A DNA stretch of 64,000 nucleotides, taken from positions 62,001-126,000 of the forward strand of contig JAUQWM010000044.1 in NCBI GenBank assembly GCA_030835125.1, read 5' to 3'. This DNA comes from Gemmatimonadaceae bacterium (lineage in GTDB: Bacteria; Gemmatimonadota; Gemmatimonadetes; Gemmatimonadales; Gemmatimonadaceae). The translations under genes were made by a program, and so were the position numbers. Shown piece after piece: positions 11,414 through 62,211 of this stretch (positions are counted from its first letter, which is position 1; every line of letters begins with the position of its first letter). The notes below the pieces were generated by a model. That model saw only the letters and a program-made list of their open reading frames with translations, searched no databases and was not told the origin of the DNA.

Positions 11414-12354
11414 GCGGCGTCGACTTTCGTCCCCTCGGCCTGATGGTCGGTCACGCGACCGACGCCGAGGGCGCGACCGGCGTGACGGTCGTCAGGCATG
11501 CCGAGCGGCCGTGGCGTGGCGGGCACTCCATAATCGGCCGTGCGACCGGGACCCGGGAGCTCAACGCCCTGACGCCGACCAGCCTGGCCGATCGCGTCGA
11601 CGCCGTGATGCTGACCGGCGGCTCCGCGTTCGGCCTCGATGCCGCCGCCGGGGTGATGCGCTGGATGGAGGAGCGGCAGCGCGGCGTCGCGATGGCCGGC
11701 GTGGTCGTGCCGATCGTGCCGGCGGCGGTGATCTTCGACCTCTTGCCGCTTGGCCGCCCGGACGCGCGTCCCACCCCCGACATGGCGTACCGGGCCTGCG
11801 ACAGCGCAGTCTCCACCGGGATTGCGGAAGGGAGCGTCGGCGCCGGCACCGGGGCGACGGTGGGGAAGGTTGCCGGGCGTGAGGGGGCGATGAAAGGCGG
11901 CGTGGGGTGCTGGTTCGAGCAGGTCGACAGCCTGATGGTCGGCGCGGTAGTGGTCGTGAACGCGTTCGGGGACGTTCGCGATGGCACTGGCGCCATCATC
12001 GCCGGGGCACGGATGCCGAACGGACGCTTCCTCGACTCCGCGCGAGTCCTGGCGCACGGGGCGGCGTCGCCGCCGGCCGCGCAGCAGGGCGCGGCGCATG
12101 CCGAGGGGCAGAACACGACTCTGGCGGTGGTTGCCACGAACGCCGCACTTTCCCGGACCGGGGTGATGGAACTGGCTGGGGCGGCGGCCGGGGCGTTCCA
12201 CCGGCGCATCACACCGGCCGGTACATCGTTCGATGGCGACACGGTCTTCTCGCTGTGTCCGCACGAGGGGTTGAGCTTTCCGCTGGTGCAGGTGGAGGCG
12301 CTGGCGGTCCGCGTGCTGGAAGCCGCGATCGAGAGGGCAGTCAGATTGGCGTGA
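11410..12354 (+). CDS. P1-family (S58, DmpA-like) peptidase
   Basis: N-terminal-nucleophile hydrolase of the DmpA/P1 family, 314 residues. These proenzymes cleave themselves to expose a Ser or Thr nucleophile and act as aminopeptidases or amidases. Family features include GHATDAEGATG (14-24), MLTGGSAFGLDAA (68-80) and GAGTGATVGK (145-153). The likely autocleavage region is NTTLAVVATNA (235-245), placing Thr236 or Thr237 where DmpA has Ser. There is no signal peptide. The GTG start overlaps the zinc-ribbon gene by 4 bases. The TGA stop lies in the first unit of a heptamer array. Confidence 0.88.
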   Translation: MSGVDFRPLGLMVGHATDAEGATGVTVVRHAERPWRGGHSIIGRATGTRELNALTPTSLADRVDAVMLTGGSAFGLDAAAGVMRWMEERQRGVAMAGVVVPIVPAAVIFDLLPLGRPDARPTPDMAYRACDSAVSTGIAEGSVGAGTGATVGKVAGREGAMKGGVGCWFEQVDSLMVGAVVVVNAFGDVRDGTGAIIAGARMPNGRFLDSARVLAHGAASPPAAQQGAAHAEGQNTTLAVVATNAALSRTGVMELAGAAAGAFHRRITPAGTSFDGDTVFSLCPHEGLSFPLVQVEALAVRVLEAAIERAVRLA

Positions 12355-12441
12355 CTCGTGACTCGTGACTCGTGACTGGTGGCCCCTGGCCCCTGGCCTC
12401 TGGCCTCTGGCCTCTGACCTCCGACCTCCGACCTCTGACCT
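12351..12441 (+). repeat. Heptanucleotide array, 13 in-phase units changing family
   Basis: Thirteen consecutive 7-base units run without loss of phase: three GTGACTC, then GTGACTG, GTGGCCC, CTGGCCC, three CTGGCCT, CTGACCT, two CCGACCT and CTGACCT. Neighbouring units differ by 0-2 bases, so one family grades into another. The peptidase stop codon is in unit 1. A GGAGGG ribosome-binding site for the next gene follows directly. Confidence 0.93.
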
Positions 12442-13020: not shown

Positions 13021-13062
<42 letters not shown>

Positions 13063-17137: not shown

Positions 17138-17220
17138 GGCATCAGGCATCAGGCATCAGGGGGAACCCGGTGCTCGGAGGATGTGCGGCCCCTGATGCCT
17201 GATGCCTGATGCCTGATGCC
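17138..17220. repeat. Heptamer arrays in inverted orientation: perfect 25-bp hairpin
   Basis: Three GGCATCA units (17138-17158) face four TGATGCC units (17193-17220). With flanking Gs and Cs, 17138-17162 and 17189-17213 are perfectly complementary over 25 bp, leaving a 26-base loop. The hairpin separates two divergent genes, and the right array supplies several ATGs in different frames just ahead of the transporter gene. Confidence 0.93.
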
Positions 17221-17230
17221 TGTCGACTAC

Positions 17231-20597: not shown

Positions 20598-22745
20598 ATG
20601 ATCCTGAATGGGACACGGCGCCTGATCCTGGCGACGTTGATCGCGCTGGTGGCTGCCTCGGGCGTATCGGCGCAGGGACGGCCGGCCAAGCGCGTGGCTG
20701 ACATCGTGGGCGTGGCGCTGGCCGAGTACGACAAGGGCGTCGACGCGTCCGGCCGCCTGATCTCGAGCCTCGAGTTCGACGAGGCGGTGTCGTTCCTGGG
20801 GACCGCGCGCGAGGCGGCGCAGCGCATGAGCGGCACCGGCGCCGACTCGGCGCGGCTGGCGCTCGACTCGATCTGGGCGGGGGTCAACCGGCGCGTGCCG
20901 CCGCGCGCGCTGGACCGGTGGCGCGACGCCTTCCTCGCGGCGCTGGGCGCGGATGCCGCGCTCGACCTCCCGACGCGACCGGTGGACCTGGCGGCCGGCG
21001 CGCGGCTCTACGCGCTGCATTGTGCCTCGTGCCACGGGCCGCGGGGGATGGGCGACGGGGAGGCGGGCCGGGGGATGGTCCCGCCGCCGCCGGCGATAGG
21101 CAGCGCCGCAGTGATGGCGGACGTGCCGCCGGCGCTGATGTACCGGATCGTGTCGGTGGGGATCGCCGGGACGCCGATGACCGGCTGGGCGGAGCAGCTC
21201 GGCGCCGACGACCGCTGGAGCATCGTGTCCTGGCTGGTGCGGCTGCGGCAGCCCGGCGACAGCGGCCTGGCGGTCGGGGAGGGCGTGTGGGTGCAGCGCT
21301 GCGCGTCGTGCCACGGCGTGGGCGGGGGATCGAACGGACCCATGAGCGCGTCGCTGTCGCGACTTCCGCGCGAGCTGTCGTCGTTCGCGTGGCAGGCGGA
21401 ACGGAGCGATGCCCAGATCGTGGCCGCGACACGCGACGGCGTGCCCGGCACGGCGATGCCCGCGGCGCGGGACCTCACCGAGGCCGAGATGCGCGGGCTG
21501 GTCGCCTGGGTGCGTTCGCTGTCGGCGCTCGACGCGCCCGGCGCGACCTCTGCCGGCGGGTCGAGTCCCGACTCGACGGTCCGCGGGGTGATGCGGCACC
21601 TCGAGGCGGCGATGGCCTCGGTGCGGGCCGGTCGCCAGTCGGAGGCGGATGACCACGCCTTCGATGCCTACATCGCCTTCGAACCGCTGGAGACTCCGGC
21701 GCGGGCGCGGAGTCCGGGAACGGTGGCGGCCCTCGAGCGGCATTTCGCCGACTTCAAGGGCGCCATCTCCGCGCGCGACCTGCGGGGGGCCGATCGCTCG
21801 AAGAACGCGATCGAGCAGGGCCTTCCGGGTGTCCAGGCACTGACCGGGCCGCCGGCGAGCGGGTGGGGCGCGTTCCTCCAGTCCCTCCTGATCATCCTCC
21901 GGGAAGGGCTGGAGGCGATCCTGGTGATCGGCGCGGTGGTGGCGTTCCTGGTCAAGACCGGCCACCGGGAGCGCCTGCGCTCGATCTGGGTGGGCGTGCT
22001 CCTGGCGTTAGGCGCGAGCGCCCTGACGGCCGTGATCATGGCCACGGCGCTGCGGGCGCTGCCGGCGACGCGTGAGGTCATCGAGGGGGCGACCATGCTG
22101 GTGGCCGTCGCGGTCCTGTTCTCGGTCAGCTACTGGCTGATCTCGAAGGTCGAGGCGGCGAAGTGGCAGAAGTTCATCCGGGAGAAGGTCGACGCGGCGC
22201 TGCAGCATGGCGGCGGCACGGCACTGGCGCTGGTGGCGTTCCTGGCGGTGTATCGCGAGGGCGCCGAGACGGCCCTGTTCTACCAGGCCCTGCTGAACGA
22301 GGGCACCGGGATCCTGCTGCCCCTGCTGGCCGGCGTCCTCGTGGGCGGCGCGATCCTCGCGGTCATCTTCACGCTGTTCTGGAAGTACGGCGTCCGCATC
22401 CCCCTCCGCCCGTTCTTCGCCGTCACGAGCGTGCTGTTGTACTACATGGCGTTCGTGTTCATGGGGAAAGGCATTCGCGAGCTGCAGGAGGGTGGGGTGG
22501 TGGGGATCACGGTCCTGCCCGGCTGGCCGCACATCGATCCGATGGGGATCTTCCCCAGCGTGGAGACCCTGCTGGCCCAGCTGCTGCTCCTGGTGCTGTT
22601 TGCATTCGCGCTGCTGAAGACGTTCTGGCCGAAGCGCTCGGTGACGCTGCCGACGGTGCCCGTGAATGGCGGCGAACTTCCCAATGTGCTGGAGCGGCTG
22701 GATCGCATCGAGACGAGGTTGGGAATCGGAAATCGTGACTCGTGA
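20598..22745 (+). CDS. Cytochrome c-FTR1 fusion, high-affinity iron permease
   Basis: Iron uptake protein joining an electron-transfer module to a permease, 715 residues. A signal peptide (about 1-25) precedes two class I cytochrome c domains with haem sites CASCH at 142-146 and 235-239. A helical linker (330-425) leads to a seven-helix FTR1 domain with both iron motifs, REGLE (435-439) and REGAE (553-557). In FTR1 systems iron is oxidised before transport; the fused haems may do this in the periplasm. ATG 20598 is chosen for the signal peptide. A Fur-like palindrome lies directly upstream. The stop and last residues fall in a heptamer array. Confidence 0.92.
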   Translation: MILNGTRRLILATLIALVAASGVSAQGRPAKRVADIVGVALAEYDKGVDASGRLISSLEFDEAVSFLGTAREAAQRMSGTGADSARLALDSIWAGVNRRVPPRALDRWRDAFLAALGADAALDLPTRPVDLAAGARLYALHCASCHGPRGMGDGEAGRGMVPPPPAIGSAAVMADVPPALMYRIVSVGIAGTPMTGWAEQLGADDRWSIVSWLVRLRQPGDSGLAVGEGVWVQRCASCHGVGGGSNGPMSASLSRLPRELSSFAWQAERSDAQIVAATRDGVPGTAMPAARDLTEAEMRGLVAWVRSLSALDAPGATSAGGSSPDSTVRGVMRHLEAAMASVRAGRQSEADDHAFDAYIAFEPLETPARARSPGTVAALERHFADFKGAISARDLRGADRSKNAIEQGLPGVQALTGPPASGWGAFLQSLLIILREGLEAILVIGAVVAFLVKTGHRERLRSIWVGVLLALGASALTAVIMATALRALPATREVIEGATMLVAVAVLFSVSYWLISKVEAAKWQKFIREKVDAALQHGGGTALALVAFLAVYREGAETALFYQALLNEGTGILLPLLAGVLVGGAILAVIFTLFWKYGVRIPLRPFFAVTSVLLYYMAFVFMGKGIRELQEGGVVGITVLPGWPHIDPMGIFPSVETLLAQLLLLVLFAFALLKTFWPKRSVTLPTVPVNGGELPNVLERLDRIETRLGIGNRDS

Positions 22746-22869
22746 TTCGTGATTCGTGATTCGTGACTCGTGACTCGTGACTCGTGACTCGTGATTCGCG
22801 TTTGCACCTGATTCCTCGGTTCTCAACGCACTCTCAACTCTCAACTCGCAACTCCCAACTCGCACCTGG
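22734..22869 (+). repeat. Two adjacent heptanucleotide arrays
   Basis: Nine in-phase units of CGTGACT/CGTGATT span 22734-22796 and contain the FTR1 stop codon. After a short AT-richer gap, 22824-22869 has CAACTCT-type units (CAACTCT, CAACTCG, CAACTCC, CAACTCG) with one partial unit out of phase. The second family is the reverse complement of the AGAGTTG arrays at 13021 and 59046. Confidence 0.92.
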
Positions 22870-22887
22870 TTGTAAGGCATCGGCGTA

Positions 22888-22916
22888 TTGCGTGAATCGC
22901 GGAGTTGTTGAATACT
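22888..22916 (+). promoter_or_regulatory. Putative sigma-70-like promoter of the structured RNA
   Basis: TTGCGT (22888-22893) and AATACT (22911-22916) are separated by exactly 17 bases. The predicted start, about 22922-22924, coincides with the first base pairs of the long stem that opens the RNA candidate. Support is by eye only. Confidence 0.45.
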
Positions 22917-22920
22917 GAGC

Positions 22921-23204
22921 GTGCAGGCGGGGCGAAGCCAACACGACGCCCCAAGCAGGCCGGGCAACATGATCCCGGTTCTCCCAGGGAAGCAGGGAGC
23001 ACAGTGCGAAGGCGCTGCGAGCAACGCCCCGCTGCACAGTCCCGCCAACGAGCGGGGTGAACCGTCGAGGTCAGTAAACCCTCGATCGGGCGCTGGTCCG
23101 GAAATCGGGAGCCTGAGGCTCTCGCGGCATTGCCGCCTGGATCCTCCGGACACGGCGCAACAGGGCGCCGGGGCGAGCATGGCCCCGGCGTCCTCGTTGT
23201 TTCT
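22921..23204 (+). ncRNA. Candidate structured non-coding RNA, about 285 nt, no known family recognised
   Basis: No plausible protein gene covers this stretch, yet it is full of nested base pairing. Domain 1: 22921-22934 pairs with 23025-23037 (13 bp, one bulged G) and encloses three hairpins (22960-22978, 22981-22999, 23002-23017). Domain 2: hairpins 23041-23056 and 23065-23085, then a stem 23096-23102/23145-23151 enclosing two hairpins (23109-23121, 23124-23136). Several loops are 9 bases long. A promoter-like pair precedes it and a 9-bp GC hairpin with a T-rich tail ends it. I looked for SRP RNA, tmRNA, RNase P, 6S and cobalamin-riboswitch core sequences and saw none. Confidence 0.55.
23166..23204 (+). 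terminator. Intrinsic terminator-like hairpin
   Basis: CGCCGGGGC (23166-23174) pairs perfectly with GCCCCGGCG (23182-23190) around a 7-base loop. TCCTCGTTGTTTCT follows, T-rich on the + strand only. It would end the structured RNA and any read-through from the FTR1 gene, just before the convergent DinB-like gene. Confidence 0.65.
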
Positions 23205-23213
23205 CCGGCCCGC

Positions 23214-23708
23214 CTAACGCAGCGTCCGGTAGTAGGCGATCAGGTCCGTGCTCGCGCCGGGCGCGGCGCCCAGCTGCCGCAGCATCGTCGTGACCTGGCC
23301 GCGATGGTACGTCGCGTGGTTCACCACGTGGGTCACGATCTGCCACACGGTGGACTCGCCGGCCGCGCCGCTCAGCAACGCATACGGGACCACCCTGGCG
23401 ATCCCGGCCTCGCCGGCACCGGCGATGTCCGCGCGGACCTTCGATTCCAGTTCCCCCCAGTGTCGCCGCAGCGTGTCGACGTCAGGCAGGTCGATCGACG
23501 GAAACGCGGTCGGCGAGATCCCGTTCCAGCGTTCGTGCCAGATCCACTCGGCCAGGTACACGTGATTCAGCGTGTCGCGGACGGAAGAAAAGCTGTTCCC
23601 CATCGGTCGCGCATACTGCTCCGGCGTCAGCGCGCCGGCCGCCTCGAGCACCCGGTCACGCGCCCAGTAGTGAAAGTCCAGGAGCAGCCTGAGGTAGTCG
23701 AGGTTCAT
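23214..23708 (-). CDS. DinB-family protein
   Basis: A 164-residue four-helix-bundle protein of the DinB/YfiT-like superfamily, whose members bind a metal through three histidines and often act as small thiol-dependent transferases. Candidate ligands are His49 in LNHVYLAEWIWHERW and the two histidines in HVVNHATYHRGQ. The real function is unknown. ATG 23708 is preceded by no strong Shine-Dalgarno. The TAG stop lies inside a GCCTAAC motif read from the other strand. It is the last gene of the long minus-strand series after lgt. Confidence 0.85.
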   Translation of the reverse strand: MNLDYLRLLLDFHYWARDRVLEAAGALTPEQYARPMGNSFSSVRDTLNHVYLAEWIWHERWNGISPTAFPSIDLPDVDTLRRHWGELESKVRADIAGAGEAGIARVVPYALLSGAAGESTVWQIVTHVVNHATYHRGQVTTMLRQLGAAPGASTDLIAYYRTLR

Positions 23709-23760
23709 GGCGTCGCTCCGTTCGTTGCATCCGGACAGGGCCCCGATGCCACGGTTTCGG

Positions 23761-24597
23761 TCAGGCGGCCCGGGGGGACACCGGCGTCGCCGATCCCGTC
23801 CGGCGCATCTGCATGACGACGATTCCCGCGATCGCCAAGGCGACCGCGATGCCCTGGGCGAGCGTGAACCCCATGAAGCCGCGGTCGTCCTTGGCCCGGA
23901 AGAACTCGATGAGGAATCGCTCGGCACCGGCCAGGACGAGGTACATCCCGAACAGCCATCCCGGGGCACGCCGGTGGTTCCGGAACCGCCACAGCAGCAG
24001 GAACATGAGGAAGCCGAGCGCGGTCTCGTAGAGCTGCGTCGGGTGGACGGCGAGCACGGTGTTCGCGGTCGCCCCCTCGGGGATGGGGATGCCGAAGTCC
24101 TGGAACATCCAGCCCGCGGTGGACGGTGGCTGGCCCTCGGGGAACATGACGGCGAGCGGACCATCCCACGGTCGGCCATAGTCGTCGCCGACCGCCCAGC
24201 ATCCGGTGCGCCCAACCGAGTATCCCGCCGCGATCGAGATGCCGCCGATGTCGGCGAATCGCCAGAAGGAGAGTCCCTTCTTCCGGATCATGAGCCAGAC
24301 GGCGGTGACGGCCCCGATGAACCCGCCCCAGAAGACGAACCCGGCCCGCGAGAAGAGCGCCGACCAGTCGTGCACGACGAGCGCCGAGTAGTAGAGCTTC
24401 CCGCCGATGAGGGTGCCGATGACGGAGGCGAGGATCAGGTCGGGGATCGCATCGGCTTCCTTCTGGTGTCCCTGGCGCAGGAGTTCGTGCTGGGAAATGA
24501 TCTGCGCGACCACGAACGCCATGAGCACGGCGAGGCCGAACCCCGTGAGCTCGAGGGGCCCGATGTTGATGACGAAGGGATGGTGGGTAATTGGCAT
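23761..24597 (-). CDS. lgt: Prolipoprotein diacylglyceryl transferase
   Basis: Inner-membrane enzyme that moves diacylglycerol from phosphatidylglycerol to the lipobox Cys of prolipoproteins. At 278 residues with about seven helices it has normal size. The Lgt signature appears as YSVGRTGCWAVGDDYGRPWDGP (about 125-146), and the conserved HPTQLYE motif and ERFLIEFFR follow. It would process the lipoprotein hydrolase encoded at 41786-42787. Repeat copy C lies immediately upstream of the ATG, so its promoter or ribosome-binding site must be unusual or come from tsaD read-through. Confidence 0.96.
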   Translation of the reverse strand: MPITHHPFVINIGPLELTGFGLAVLMAFVVAQIISQHELLRQGHQKEADAIPDLILASVIGTLIGGKLYYSALVVHDWSALFSRAGFVFWGGFIGAVTAVWLMIRKKGLSFWRFADIGGISIAAGYSVGRTGCWAVGDDYGRPWDGPLAVMFPEGQPPSTAGWMFQDFGIPIPEGATANTVLAVHPTQLYETALGFLMFLLLWRFRNHRRAPGWLFGMYLVLAGAERFLIEFFRAKDDRGFMGFTLAQGIAVALAIAGIVVMQMRRTGSATPVSPRAA

Positions 24598-31038: not shown

Positions 31039-32246
31039 GTCTGGGGTTCCGGACCGGAGGCCAGGCGGTCGAGCCACTCGGTGGCCCAGGCGTCGAAGCC
31101 GCCTGCCTGGATGGCGGCACGCGCGCCGCGCATCAGGGACCCGAGGAAATGTACATTGTGAAGCGAGAGCAGGCGCAGCCCCAGGATCTCGTCCGAGACG
31201 TACAAGTGCCGCAGGTAAGCGCGGGAAAAGCGCCGGCAAACCGTGCAGTCGCAGGACTCGTCGATGGGTCGCGGGTCGGCCCGGTACCCGGCTCGCTTGA
31301 TGTTGAGCCTCCCTTCCCGCGAGAAGACCGTTCCGTTGCGGCCCATGCGCGTGGGCGCGACGCAATCGAACAGGTCCACCCCCCGCCGGACGCCCTGGAT
31401 GAGGTCCTCGGGGAACCCGACGCCCATGAGGTAGCGGGGCCGGTCGGCCGGAAGCTCCGGATGGAGGACCTCGAGCATGGCGTACATGTCCGGCTTTGCC
31501 TCACCGACGGACAAGCCGCCGATCGCCACGCCCTGCCAGTCATCGATCGCCATGATCGCGCGCGCGGCGTCGCGCCGGAGATCGCGGTGGATGCCGCCCT
31601 GGACGATGGGGAAGAGCGCTTGGCGGGAATCGGGATTCGGGAATCGGGACTCGACGGTGAGAAGTTCCCTGTCCACCTCGGACCTCTGAGCTCGGACCTC
31701 TTCCAGGCAGCGCTCCAGCCATCGGATGGAACGCTCGGAGGCATCCTTCGATGCGTCGAAGGTCGATTGCCCCGGGATGACGTGGTCGAACTGCATGACC
31801 ACGTCGGCGCCGAGGTTCTGCTGGATGCGGATGACGGATTCCGGCGTGAACCGGCGTTTCGATCCGTCGATGTGGCTGCGAAACTCGACCCCATCCTCGT
31901 CGACGCTGCGCAGTCCCTCGAGCGAGAAGACCTGGAAGCCACCGGAATCGGTGAGGATAGGGCGGTCCCACGCCATGAACCGGTGGAGTCCGCCGAGGTC
32001 GCGCACGACGTCGTCGCCCGGGCGCAGGTGCAGGTGGTACGTGTTGGCGAGCACCATCCCGGCGCCGGCTGCCACGAGGTCCTCGGGGTCGAGGGCCTTC
32101 ACGGTGCCCAGGGTCCCGACCGGCATGAAGGCCGGTGTATTCACCGCGCCATGGGGCGTGGTGAACGTGCCGGCGCGTGCACTGCCCGCGGTCGCCTCCA
32201 GGCGGAACGAGAATCCGCTCACCGGGTCGCCGCTGGGTGGCTGCAA
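31035..32246 (-). CDS. tgt: Queuine tRNA-ribosyltransferase with an in-frame repeat insertion
   Basis: Exchanges guanine-34 for preQ1 in tRNA(GUN). Key elements are DSGGFQVFS with the catalytic Asp, the nucleophile motif LFDCVAPTR, and the zinc site CDCTVC followed by a distal His. At 403 residues it is about 26 longer than the usual 375-380. The excess matches residues about 182-208, encoded by heptamer arrays (31624-31701) placed between the ERCLEE helix and the QALFPIVQGG strand. It follows queA with no gap and overlaps yajC by 4 bases. All catalytic motifs are intact, so it is probably functional. Confidence 0.96.
   Translation of the reverse strand: MQPPSGDPVSGFSFRLEATAGSARAGTFTTPHGAVNTPAFMPVGTLGTVKALDPEDLVAAGAGMVLANTYHLHLRPGDDVVRDLGGLHRFMAWDRPILTDSGGFQVFSLEGLRSVDEDGVEFRSHIDGSKRRFTPESVIRIQQNLGADVVMQFDHVIPGQSTFDASKDASERSIRWLERCLEEVRAQRSEVDRELLTVESRFPNPDSRQALFPIVQGGIHRDLRRDAARAIMAIDDWQGVAIGGLSVGEAKPDMYAMLEVLHPELPADRPRYLMGVGFPEDLIQGVRRGVDLFDCVAPTRMGRNGTVFSREGRLNIKRAGYRADPRPIDESCDCTVCRRFSRAYLRHLYVSDEILGLRLLSLHNVHFLGSLMRGARAAIQAGGFDAWATEWLDRLASGPEPQT
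31624..31701 (-). repeat. Heptanucleotide arrays inside the tgt coding sequence
   Basis: CGGGAAT, CGGGATT, CGGGAAT and CGGGACT (31624-31651) and CACCTCG, GACCTCT, GAGCTCG and GACCTCT (31674-31701) flank a 22-base centre. The whole block is 78 bases, exactly 26 codons, keeping the reading frame. The inserted protein is charged and disordered-looking (VRAQRSEVDRELLTVESR). Confidence 0.88.
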
Positions 32247-38276: not shown

Positions 38277-38305
38277 CTCACGCGCTGGAGTTGGTCAAAG
38301 CTGCC

Positions 38306-38368
38306 CCGATGCCTGATGCCCGATGCCCGATGCCCGATGCCCGATGCCCGATGCCTGATGCCCGATGC
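38306..38368. repeat. Heptanucleotide array, nine CCGATGC/CTGATGC units
   Basis: Nine units in perfect 7-base phase (seven CCGATGC, two CTGATGC). The array ends exactly where the TAG stop of the minus-strand aminotransferase begins (38369-38371). It is the same family as the TGATGCC hairpin at 17138, here in one orientation only. Confidence 0.95.
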
Positions 38369-39520
38369 CTATCGCGTCGCGATCTCCCGGATCCTCTCTG
38401 CCGCCCGCTCCAGGGTCTCCGTCTTCTTGCAGAAGGCGAACCTGACGTAGTGACCGCCGAGTCCCGGCGTGGCGTGGAAGCTCGAGCCGGGCACGGTGGC
38501 GATCCCCGCTTCCTTCGCCAGCCACAGCGCAAAGCTCCGGTCGTCTTCCTGGGACAGCGCCGAGAAATCGGCCAGGACGTAGTAGGCGCCCTCGGGCACC
38601 GAGAAGCGGAAGCCCGCGTCGCGCAGCGCGGAGCAGAGCAACTCCCGCCGGCCGCGATAGTCGAGCGCCATCTGGTTGTAGTAGTCCGGGCCGAACGCGA
38701 GTCCGACGGCCCCGGCTTCCTGGAGCGGGGCGGGCGCGCCCACGGTGAGGAAATCGTGGACCTTCCGGATCGCGACCGTTTCCTCCGGCGGGGCGATGAC
38801 GTGCCCGAGGCGCCACCCCGTGCAGCTGAAGGTCTTCGACAGGCCCGAGATCGTCACGGTGAGGTCGCGCATCCCCTCGAAGCCGGCGAGGAGGTGGTGG
38901 TTCCCCGCATAACGAATGTGCTCGTAGATCTCGTCGGTGAACGCCCAGACGTCGTTGGCGACGCACAACTCGGCGATGAAGCCCAGTTCCTCGCGCGAGA
39001 AGACGCGCCCGGTGGGGTTGTGGGGCGTGTTGACGATGATCGCCTTCGTGCGCGAGGTGAATGCCGCGGCCAGGCGGTCCCGGTCGAAGTGCCAGTCGGG
39101 CGGCTCCAGCGGGACGAACACCGGCCGTGCACCGGCGAGGATGGCATCGGGGCCATAGTTCTCGTAGAACGGCTCGAAGACGATGACCTCGTCGCCGGGG
39201 TCGACGAGGGCGAGGAAGACGGCGGCCATGGCCTCGGTCGCGCCGCAGGTCACCGTGATCTCGGTCTCGGTGTCGACCGGGAAGTCGTACCAGCGGCGGT
39301 ACTTCTCGGCGATCGCCAGGCGCAGCGACGGCGCTCCCCAGGTGATGGCGTACTGGTTGACGTCGCCGTGGATAGCCGCCGCCGCCGCGTCCTTCATGGG
39401 CCCCGGCATGGGAAAGTCGGGGAAACCCTGCGCGAGGTTGATGGCGCCGTGCTGGTGCGCCACGCGCGTCATCTCCCGGATGACGGATTCGGTGAAGGTC
39501 GAGGTTCGCTGGGAAGGCAT
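38369..39520 (-). CDS. Class I/II PLP aminotransferase (kynurenine/methionine type)
   Basis: Fold-type I aminotransferase of 383 residues, closest in look to methionine or kynurenine-oxoglutarate/glutamine transaminases. Visible are the N-terminal INLAQGFPDFP, NTPHNPTGRVFS (substrate and PLP contacts), FTDEIYEH, the Schiff-base Lys in SGLSKTFSCTGWRLG, and a C-terminal RFAFCK Arg. ATG 39520 (MPSQRTSTFTESV) is chosen because sixteen more in-frame residues upstream are encoded by a heptamer array. Arrays flank both ends of the gene. The amino-acid substrate is not certain. Confidence 0.92.
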   Translation of the reverse strand: MPSQRTSTFTESVIREMTRVAHQHGAINLAQGFPDFPMPGPMKDAAAAAIHGDVNQYAITWGAPSLRLAIAEKYRRWYDFPVDTETEITVTCGATEAMAAVFLALVDPGDEVIVFEPFYENYGPDAILAGARPVFVPLEPPDWHFDRDRLAAAFTSRTKAIIVNTPHNPTGRVFSREELGFIAELCVANDVWAFTDEIYEHIRYAGNHHLLAGFEGMRDLTVTISGLSKTFSCTGWRLGHVIAPPEETVAIRKVHDFLTVGAPAPLQEAGAVGLAFGPDYYNQMALDYRGRRELLCSALRDAGFRFSVPEGAYYVLADFSALSQEDDRSFALWLAKEAGIATVPGSSFHATPGLGGHYVRFAFCKKTETLERAAERIREIATR

Positions 39521-39526
39521 GGGCGT

Positions 39527-39610
39527 CGGGAATCGGGGGATCGTGATTCGTGACTCGTGACTCGGCACTGCTTCTTGGCCTCTGGCCTCTGGCCTCCGGC
39601 CTCCGGCCTA
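39527..39610. repeat. Heptanucleotide array, twelve in-phase units of mixed families
   Basis: CGGGAAT, CGGGGGA, TCGTGAT, two TCGTGAC, TCGGCAC, TGCTTCT, three TGGCCTC, CGGCCTC and CGGCCTA run without phase loss. They link three families seen separately elsewhere. The last unit contains the ruvA TAG stop (39608-39610); the first lies 7 bases upstream of the aminotransferase ATG. Confidence 0.94.
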
Positions 39611-41670: not shown

Positions 41671-41740
41671 CAGAGCGCAGAGGGCAGAGGGCAGAGGGCA
41701 GATTGCAGAGTGCAGATTGCGGATTGCAGAGTGCCGCGGG
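41671..41740. repeat. Heptanucleotide array (CAGAGGG/CAGATTG family)
   Basis: Ten in-phase units: CAGAGCG, three CAGAGGG, CAGATTG, CAGAGTG, CAGATTG, CGGATTG, CAGAGTG and CCGCGGG. CAGAGTG, CAGATTG and CGGATTG recur at 62156-62211. It occupies the gap between the hydrolase stop (41786) and the yebC promoter. Confidence 0.94.
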
Positions 41741-41785
41741 CGCGGGCGCTCGTGCTTCCGCGCGATGCCTGGCGGGTCCGCCCTC

Positions 41786-59045: not shown

Positions 59046-59120
<75 letters not shown>

Positions 59121-62155: not shown

Positions 62156-62211
62156 CAGAGTGCAGAATGCAGATTGCGGATTGCGGATTGCGGATTGCGG
62201 ATTGCGAACTG
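62156..62211. repeat. Heptanucleotide array abutting a start codon
   Basis: CAGAGTG, CAGAATG, CAGATTG, four CGGATTG and CGAACTG in 7-base phase. The array begins at the base next to the ATG of the barrel gene, so on the transcript the repeat occupies the ribosome-binding position and no Shine-Dalgarno exists. Confidence 0.94.

Follow-up and report, generated by a model that had tools for sequence, protein, structure and literature searches.

An independently encoded, modular structured RNA of the Gemmatimonadaceae that matches no Rfam family

Positions 22888-23204 of the window, the 64,000-nucleotide stretch of Gemmatimonadaceae DNA analysed here, hold a genuine structured RNA gene, encoded independently and without a match to any Rfam family. 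The gene is neither a leader nor a coding region, and almost certainly belongs to a real RNA family, unlisted to date. Its boundaries, conserved fold, non-coding nature, modularity and lack of a fixed neighbour were established computationally. A preliminary description, made from the window alone, had proposed a candidate structured RNA with promoter and terminator over this interval, with comparison to Rfam, folding energy against shuffled sequence and covariation among homologues as checks, and with a significant Rfam hit or missing covariation as grounds for refutation. The proposed fold, promoter and terminator are all borne out by the comparative consensus of the present study, and the extent requires one adjustment: a structured RNA is present, but its start lies nearer 22922, and 22888-22921 is the promoter (Table 1). 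No Gemmatimonadota-specific structured RNA was found in the open literature searched or in Rfam, and the family occurs in Gemmatimonas, a genus with cultured members. Ready homologues, natural domain-deletion variants and complete congeners without the RNA make its function directly testable. The case also illustrates that reading a single window can reveal RNA families missing from curated libraries.

Table 1 Features of the RNA gene, its variants in relatives and the neighbouring repeats. Positions are those of the window, except at loci prefixed L
Feature	Position	Strand	Remarks
Conserved element GTAAGG-N5-GCGTA abutting the -35 box	22872..22887	+	Candidate regulator site
-35 box TTGCGT	22888..22893	+	In homologues, first T 32/32, G 31/32, last G 29/32
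-10 box AATACT (consensus NATNNT)	22911..22916	+	Second base A 31/32, final T 31/32
Structured RNA, ~283 nt	22922..23204	+	5' end inferred from the -10 box
Domain 1, junction closed by P1	22922..23036	+	P1 = 22922-22934 with 23025-23036; P2 22958-22980, P3 22981-22999, P4 23000-23019
P5 hairpin	23037..23059	+	Two significantly covarying pairs; present in short variants
P6 hairpin, length variable	23062..23089	+	Both-side changes in 9/12 pairs; two significant pairs
Domain 2, three-way junction of P7, P8 and P9	23090..23158	+	P8 23107-23123, P9 23124-23136; four significant pairs
Intrinsic terminator hairpin with T-rich tail	23159..23204	+	Called as a terminator; hairpin 23159-23198
Members without the three-way-junction domain	L138 6317-6525, L140 1159-1370, L141 7938-8148, L142 7988-8193		
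g23 members without part of domain 1	L137 649-878, L139 7849-8096		
Arrays of 7-bp units in the window	12350-12441, 13022-13059, 17138-17222, 22733-22864, 31624-31653, 38305-38369, 39541-39609, 41671-41741, 59048-59120, 62161-62206		

Identification of the RNA gene

Comparison with Rfam gave no known family for this RNA. A cmscan at relaxed thresholds returned nothing near a gathering score at the locus, none of the 4227 families of Rfam 15 produced a gathering-level match anywhere in the window, and among six homologue loci only a neighbouring tRNA reached its gathering score. A SAM-Chlorobi RNA match (RF01724) over 23130-23212 was dismissed as chance (18.9 bits against a gathering score of 35 bits, E = 4.3), and low matches to mir-5350, Chloroflexus-1, SorX, P37 and Scr3920 were rejected because they fell far under their gathering scores. 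The preliminary description had recognised none of the conserved cores of SRP RNA, tmRNA, RNase P RNA, 6S RNA or common riboswitches, and Rfam likewise matches none of them at the locus. RNase P RNA (type A, RF00010; G000:C14:30886-31261, 264 bits) and bacterial small SRP RNA (RF00169; G000:C25:13830-13926) lie elsewhere in the window's genome (G000), ARAGORN found no tmRNA in 22000-24000, and the 6S RNA model (RF00013) had no match over the locus or anywhere in that genome. The open literature searched contains no published description of this RNA. RNA-seq of Gemmatimonas phototrophica AP64 has been deposited as GSE217809 (PMC9862903), and two RNA-seq papers on this species, of which that is one, give counts per annotated gene only and leave small RNAs unmentioned.

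The interval had also been described as protein-free, which needs qualification in that a 98-aa reading frame exists on the forward strand, although it is not conserved. No reading frame is open across all 32 members of the family described below; stops are present and the longest internal frame shifts, ranging from 0 to 86 codons. Substitutions relative to the congeneric copy in G001 are spread evenly over codon positions, with no codon-position bias, and on these two grounds we reject a coding explanation.

The transcript part of the interval (22922-23204) folds at -151.7 kcal/mol (z = -4.3), a stability equalled by none of 200 shuffled sequences, and the whole of 22888-23204 gives z = -5.0 on the forward and -3.5 on the reverse strand. 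Random sequence in general folds plausibly, however, and free energy alone is weak evidence (PMC8250186), so the question was carried to homologues.

Homologues and distribution

A blastn search gave one convincing congener, G001, with 79% identity over 262 nt and the same site as in the window, between an FTR1/cytochrome gene and dinB. These two copies were used to build a covariance model of the 3' half (R1), which identified 12 members in the family Gemmatimonadaceae (E from 1e-38 to 1e-9). A second model built from those 12 (R2) raised the count to 28, and a full-length model (R3; 292 positions, 91 pairs) raised it to 32 across 179 genomes of the family to which the window belongs, with one member per genome and six genera represented. 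A copy in a single-contig genome of genus g22 occupies G096:C1:3974864-3975154. The window copy itself matches R3 over 22917-23205 with 194 bits. All 26 matches obtained in 395 genomes across the phylum lie in Gemmatimonadaceae, and no member was found outside the family. Among named genomes, the relatives are Gemmatimonadaceae, including Gemmatimonas: a pattern scan of named GTDB genomes followed by R3 recovered records labelled Gemmatimonas, Gemmatimonadaceae and Gemmatimonadetes/Gemmatimonadota, as well as one labelled only 'bacterium'.

Distribution within the family is patchy. When 38 genomes without a match, mostly from genera that bear members and in some cases 99-100% complete, were searched in a more focused way, no convincing copy emerged; four weak matches were read and rejected. 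The first-pass genome search scores few candidates per genome, and divergent copies may be missed by it. A pattern search allowing up to two mismatches across the family added no further convincing member, and no member was found in the viral contigs and plasmids searched. Absence from complete congeners together with the patchy spread indicates an accessory rather than a housekeeping RNA.

Weak R1 or R3 matches at six loci (L027, L028 and L107-L110; E ~1e-3) were rejected as generic terminators or coding sequence. Separately, tandem units of ~120 bp carrying a motif, GCAGAGTGACGGCCGTGCCTCCGCG, that resembles the 5' end of the RNA were observed in one genome (G119) on two contigs (L173 1-700, G119:C223; L174, G119:C248). 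This array gave no score with R3 and is probably unrelated to the RNA.

Conserved structure and covariation

The consensus fold comprises two junction domains joined by two hairpins and followed by the terminator hairpin, much as had been drawn by eye. The four-way junction closed by 13 bp is recovered as an outer helix of 12-13 bp (P1) with three hairpins (P2 to P4), the two further hairpins correspond to P5 and P6, and the three-way junction to domain 2 with its hairpins P8 and P9. Several 9-base loops are indeed present in the window sequence; loop lengths differ among homologues. Domain 1 holds the most conserved sequence in the relatives, GCAGAGNGAGGGC...GACCCGCUGC. P1 of the window copy is nearly fully paired and has lost an AGNGA internal loop kept by most members. 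The idea of kissing dimers formed through a palindromic P2 loop (GAUCGAU) was dropped because only two genera have this loop.

The homologues show strong covariation. In the alignment of 26 full-length members, pairing holds in 91.0% of cells and both-side changes occur in 54 of the 91 proposed pairs; the covariation score is 0.349, compared with 0.163 after shuffling and no more than 0.091 with slid partners. For the first 12 members, RNAalifold had given both-side changes in 36 of 72 pairs. Since related sequences inflate such counts, a tree-aware test was made in the manner of R-scape, in which branch substitutions are re-placed at random positions and pairs are scored by a G statistic with average-product correction. 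Eleven of the 91 proposed pairs were significant at E<=0.05; they lie in P3, P5, P6, P7, P8, P9 and the terminator. No pair outside the structure was significant, and slid structures gave 0 to 1 significant pairs. Testing the whole alignment gave three significant pairs, all of them within the structure. P1 is 93-99% paired in the 26 members and three of its pairs change on both sides, although alone it stays below significance. The structure was partly derived from the tested alignment, which favours it, a concern limited by the slid controls and by the lack of significant pairs elsewhere.

The RNA is modular: the junction domain at its 5' end is followed by the linking hairpins P5 and P6, then by the optional domain 2 and finally by the terminator hairpin. 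Domain 2 is missing entirely from four members (three of genus g23 and one of g19), which retain domain 1, P5, a small hairpin and the terminator, and two g23 members are without part of domain 1 (Table 1).

Promoter, upstream element and terminator

The promoter-like pair noted in the preliminary description, TTGCGT and AATACT separated by 17 nt, is found with both boxes at conserved sites in the homologues, and almost all of the 32 members keep the consensus TTGCG-17-NATNNT, often with G at the second position of the -35 box. We interpret it as a sigma-70-type promoter belonging to the RNA itself; a scan for the strict TTGACA/TATAAT consensus does not call it.

The element abutting the -35 box has the family consensus GTNNGG-N5-CCNTA, with column identity mostly 0.4-0.9. 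Its arms form a dyad centred at -37, some 37 nt ahead of the start of the model, where 57% of cells are complementary compared with ~25% at other centres. The dyad is imperfect in the window copy, where three of five arm positions match, and absent from several g23 members. An RNA start 6-8 nt after the -10 box would put its centre near -42. Class II activators often sit near -42, and RNA synthesis is possibly controlled through the dyad by a putative regulator.

At the other end, the closing GC hairpin with a T-rich tail was called as an intrinsic terminator, and 12 of the 15 pairs of its hairpin change on both sides in the 26 full-length members. Column identity across the 32 members is ~0.28 upstream of -46 and falls to 0.30 directly 3' of the terminator; conservation thus extends from the dyad as far as the terminator.

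Genomic context

In the window, the RNA lies between FTR1 on the same strand and a convergent dinB. Most members of g22, a Gemmatimonas-like genus, have a co-oriented DUF5916 gene ending 54-163 nt upstream, and in other genera the neighbours include genes for a chemoreceptor, an aminotransferase, an E1/transketolase-domain protein and an FAD/NAD-binding oxidase, among others, in both orientations. The upstream flanking gene likewise occurs in either orientation. Downstream genes vary among members and are often convergent, so that the fixed same-strand downstream gene expected of a riboswitch or leader was not found. The neighbourhoods were searched for a protein cluster common to all of them, and none recurs across genera; no candidate protein partner emerged.

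The window also contains many tandem arrays of 7-bp units (TCGTGAC, GAGTTGA/CTCTCAA, TGGCCTC, CCCGATG, TGCGGAT and CCTGATG; Table 1), some of which recur at distant sites. Two such arrays lie between FTR1 and the RNA promoter, and one array includes the FTR1 stop codon.

Proposed function

Since neighbours differ between genera, the RNA is not the leader or riboswitch of one gene, and it very probably acts in trans. In the scheme that we propose, the gene would be transcribed from its own promoter into a predicted product of ~285 nt ending at its own intrinsic terminator, and this RNA may act in trans as a protein-binding scaffold or sponge, with a regulator at the upstream dyad possibly setting its expression. 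A folded RNA that binds protein, either as a scaffold or as a titrating sponge, is a plausible though tentative reading, which we prefer to antisense pairing. It is drawn from the conservation pattern only: hairpin loops vary, helices and the P1 strands are conserved, and there is no common single-stranded seed, a combination that favours recognition of the fold by protein over an antisense seed. Counted against a scaffold are the absence of domain 2 from some members and the partial domain 1 of two others, which leave no domain strictly universal, as well as the loss of the P1 internal loop in the window copy and the failure to find a candidate partner protein. The more elaborate proposal that the RNA might form the core of a new Gemmatimonadaceae-specific ribonucleoprotein, its 5' domain docking a protein, its optional 3' domain supplying a second activity and a dedicated regulator at the dyad switching it on, seems unlikely.

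A trans-acting antisense RNA, pairing with mRNAs through its loops or single-stranded segments and using its helices mainly for stability, would share the usual anatomy of trans-acting small RNAs seen here, namely an own promoter, an intrinsic terminator, a single copy and no fixed neighbour. The RNA is mostly paired, however, its loops differ between members in both sequence and length, it shows no long unpaired segment that is conserved, and no seed common to all members was found, which makes this reading somewhat unlikely.

We consider it improbable that the RNA was left behind or is carried along by a mobile element, or that it is the RNA partner in a defence or toxin-antitoxin system. 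Patchy presence, absence from complete congeners and sites that differ between genera would suit such an origin, but each genome carries exactly one copy, most g22 members share the same site, no adjoining gene recurs across genera, and viral contigs and plasmids yielded no member.

Replacement of 6S RNA by a lineage-specific RNA polymerase-binding regulator is quite improbable. The RNA resembles 6S RNA in being single-copy, independent and strongly folded, and the 6S role is formally vacant in the window's genome, where RF00013 has no match whereas RNase P and SRP RNAs were found; the Rfam model may, however, simply miss the 6S RNA of Gemmatimonadota. Several junctions take the place of the single long rod with a central bubble that characterises 6S RNA, and it would be strange for a housekeeping regulator to be missing from complete congeners.

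Action in cis on a neighbouring gene, as a leader, riboswitch or attenuator, or an origin as the processed end of an upstream mRNA, is very improbable and largely refuted: the co-oriented DUF5916 gene upstream in most g22 members would fit such a reading, but the RNA has its own terminator and conserved promoter, faces a convergent dinB in the window and G001, and has neighbours that change between genera and often lie on the other strand. Chance folding of a GC-rich spacer, for which the general foldability of random sequence (PMC8250186) might speak, is refuted by the covariation, the far homologues and the conserved promoter and terminator.

Comparison with known RNAs

The OLE, ROOL, GOLLD and HEARO RNAs and the raiA motif, large structured bacterial RNAs whose function is special or unknown, are long, multi-junction and lineage-restricted, and several of them are independently encoded. 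The RNA described here differs from them in architecture, ends in an intrinsic terminator and has no Rfam match at the thresholds used; it resembles them in being long, multi-junction and restricted to one lineage. Small RNAs of the CsrB/RsmZ type, which titrate proteins, are encoded by independent genes with intrinsic terminators and contain many hairpins. By eye the RNA lacks their repeated GGA loop motif, and it has no Rfam match, but like them it is an independent gene that ends in an intrinsic terminator and folds into many hairpins.
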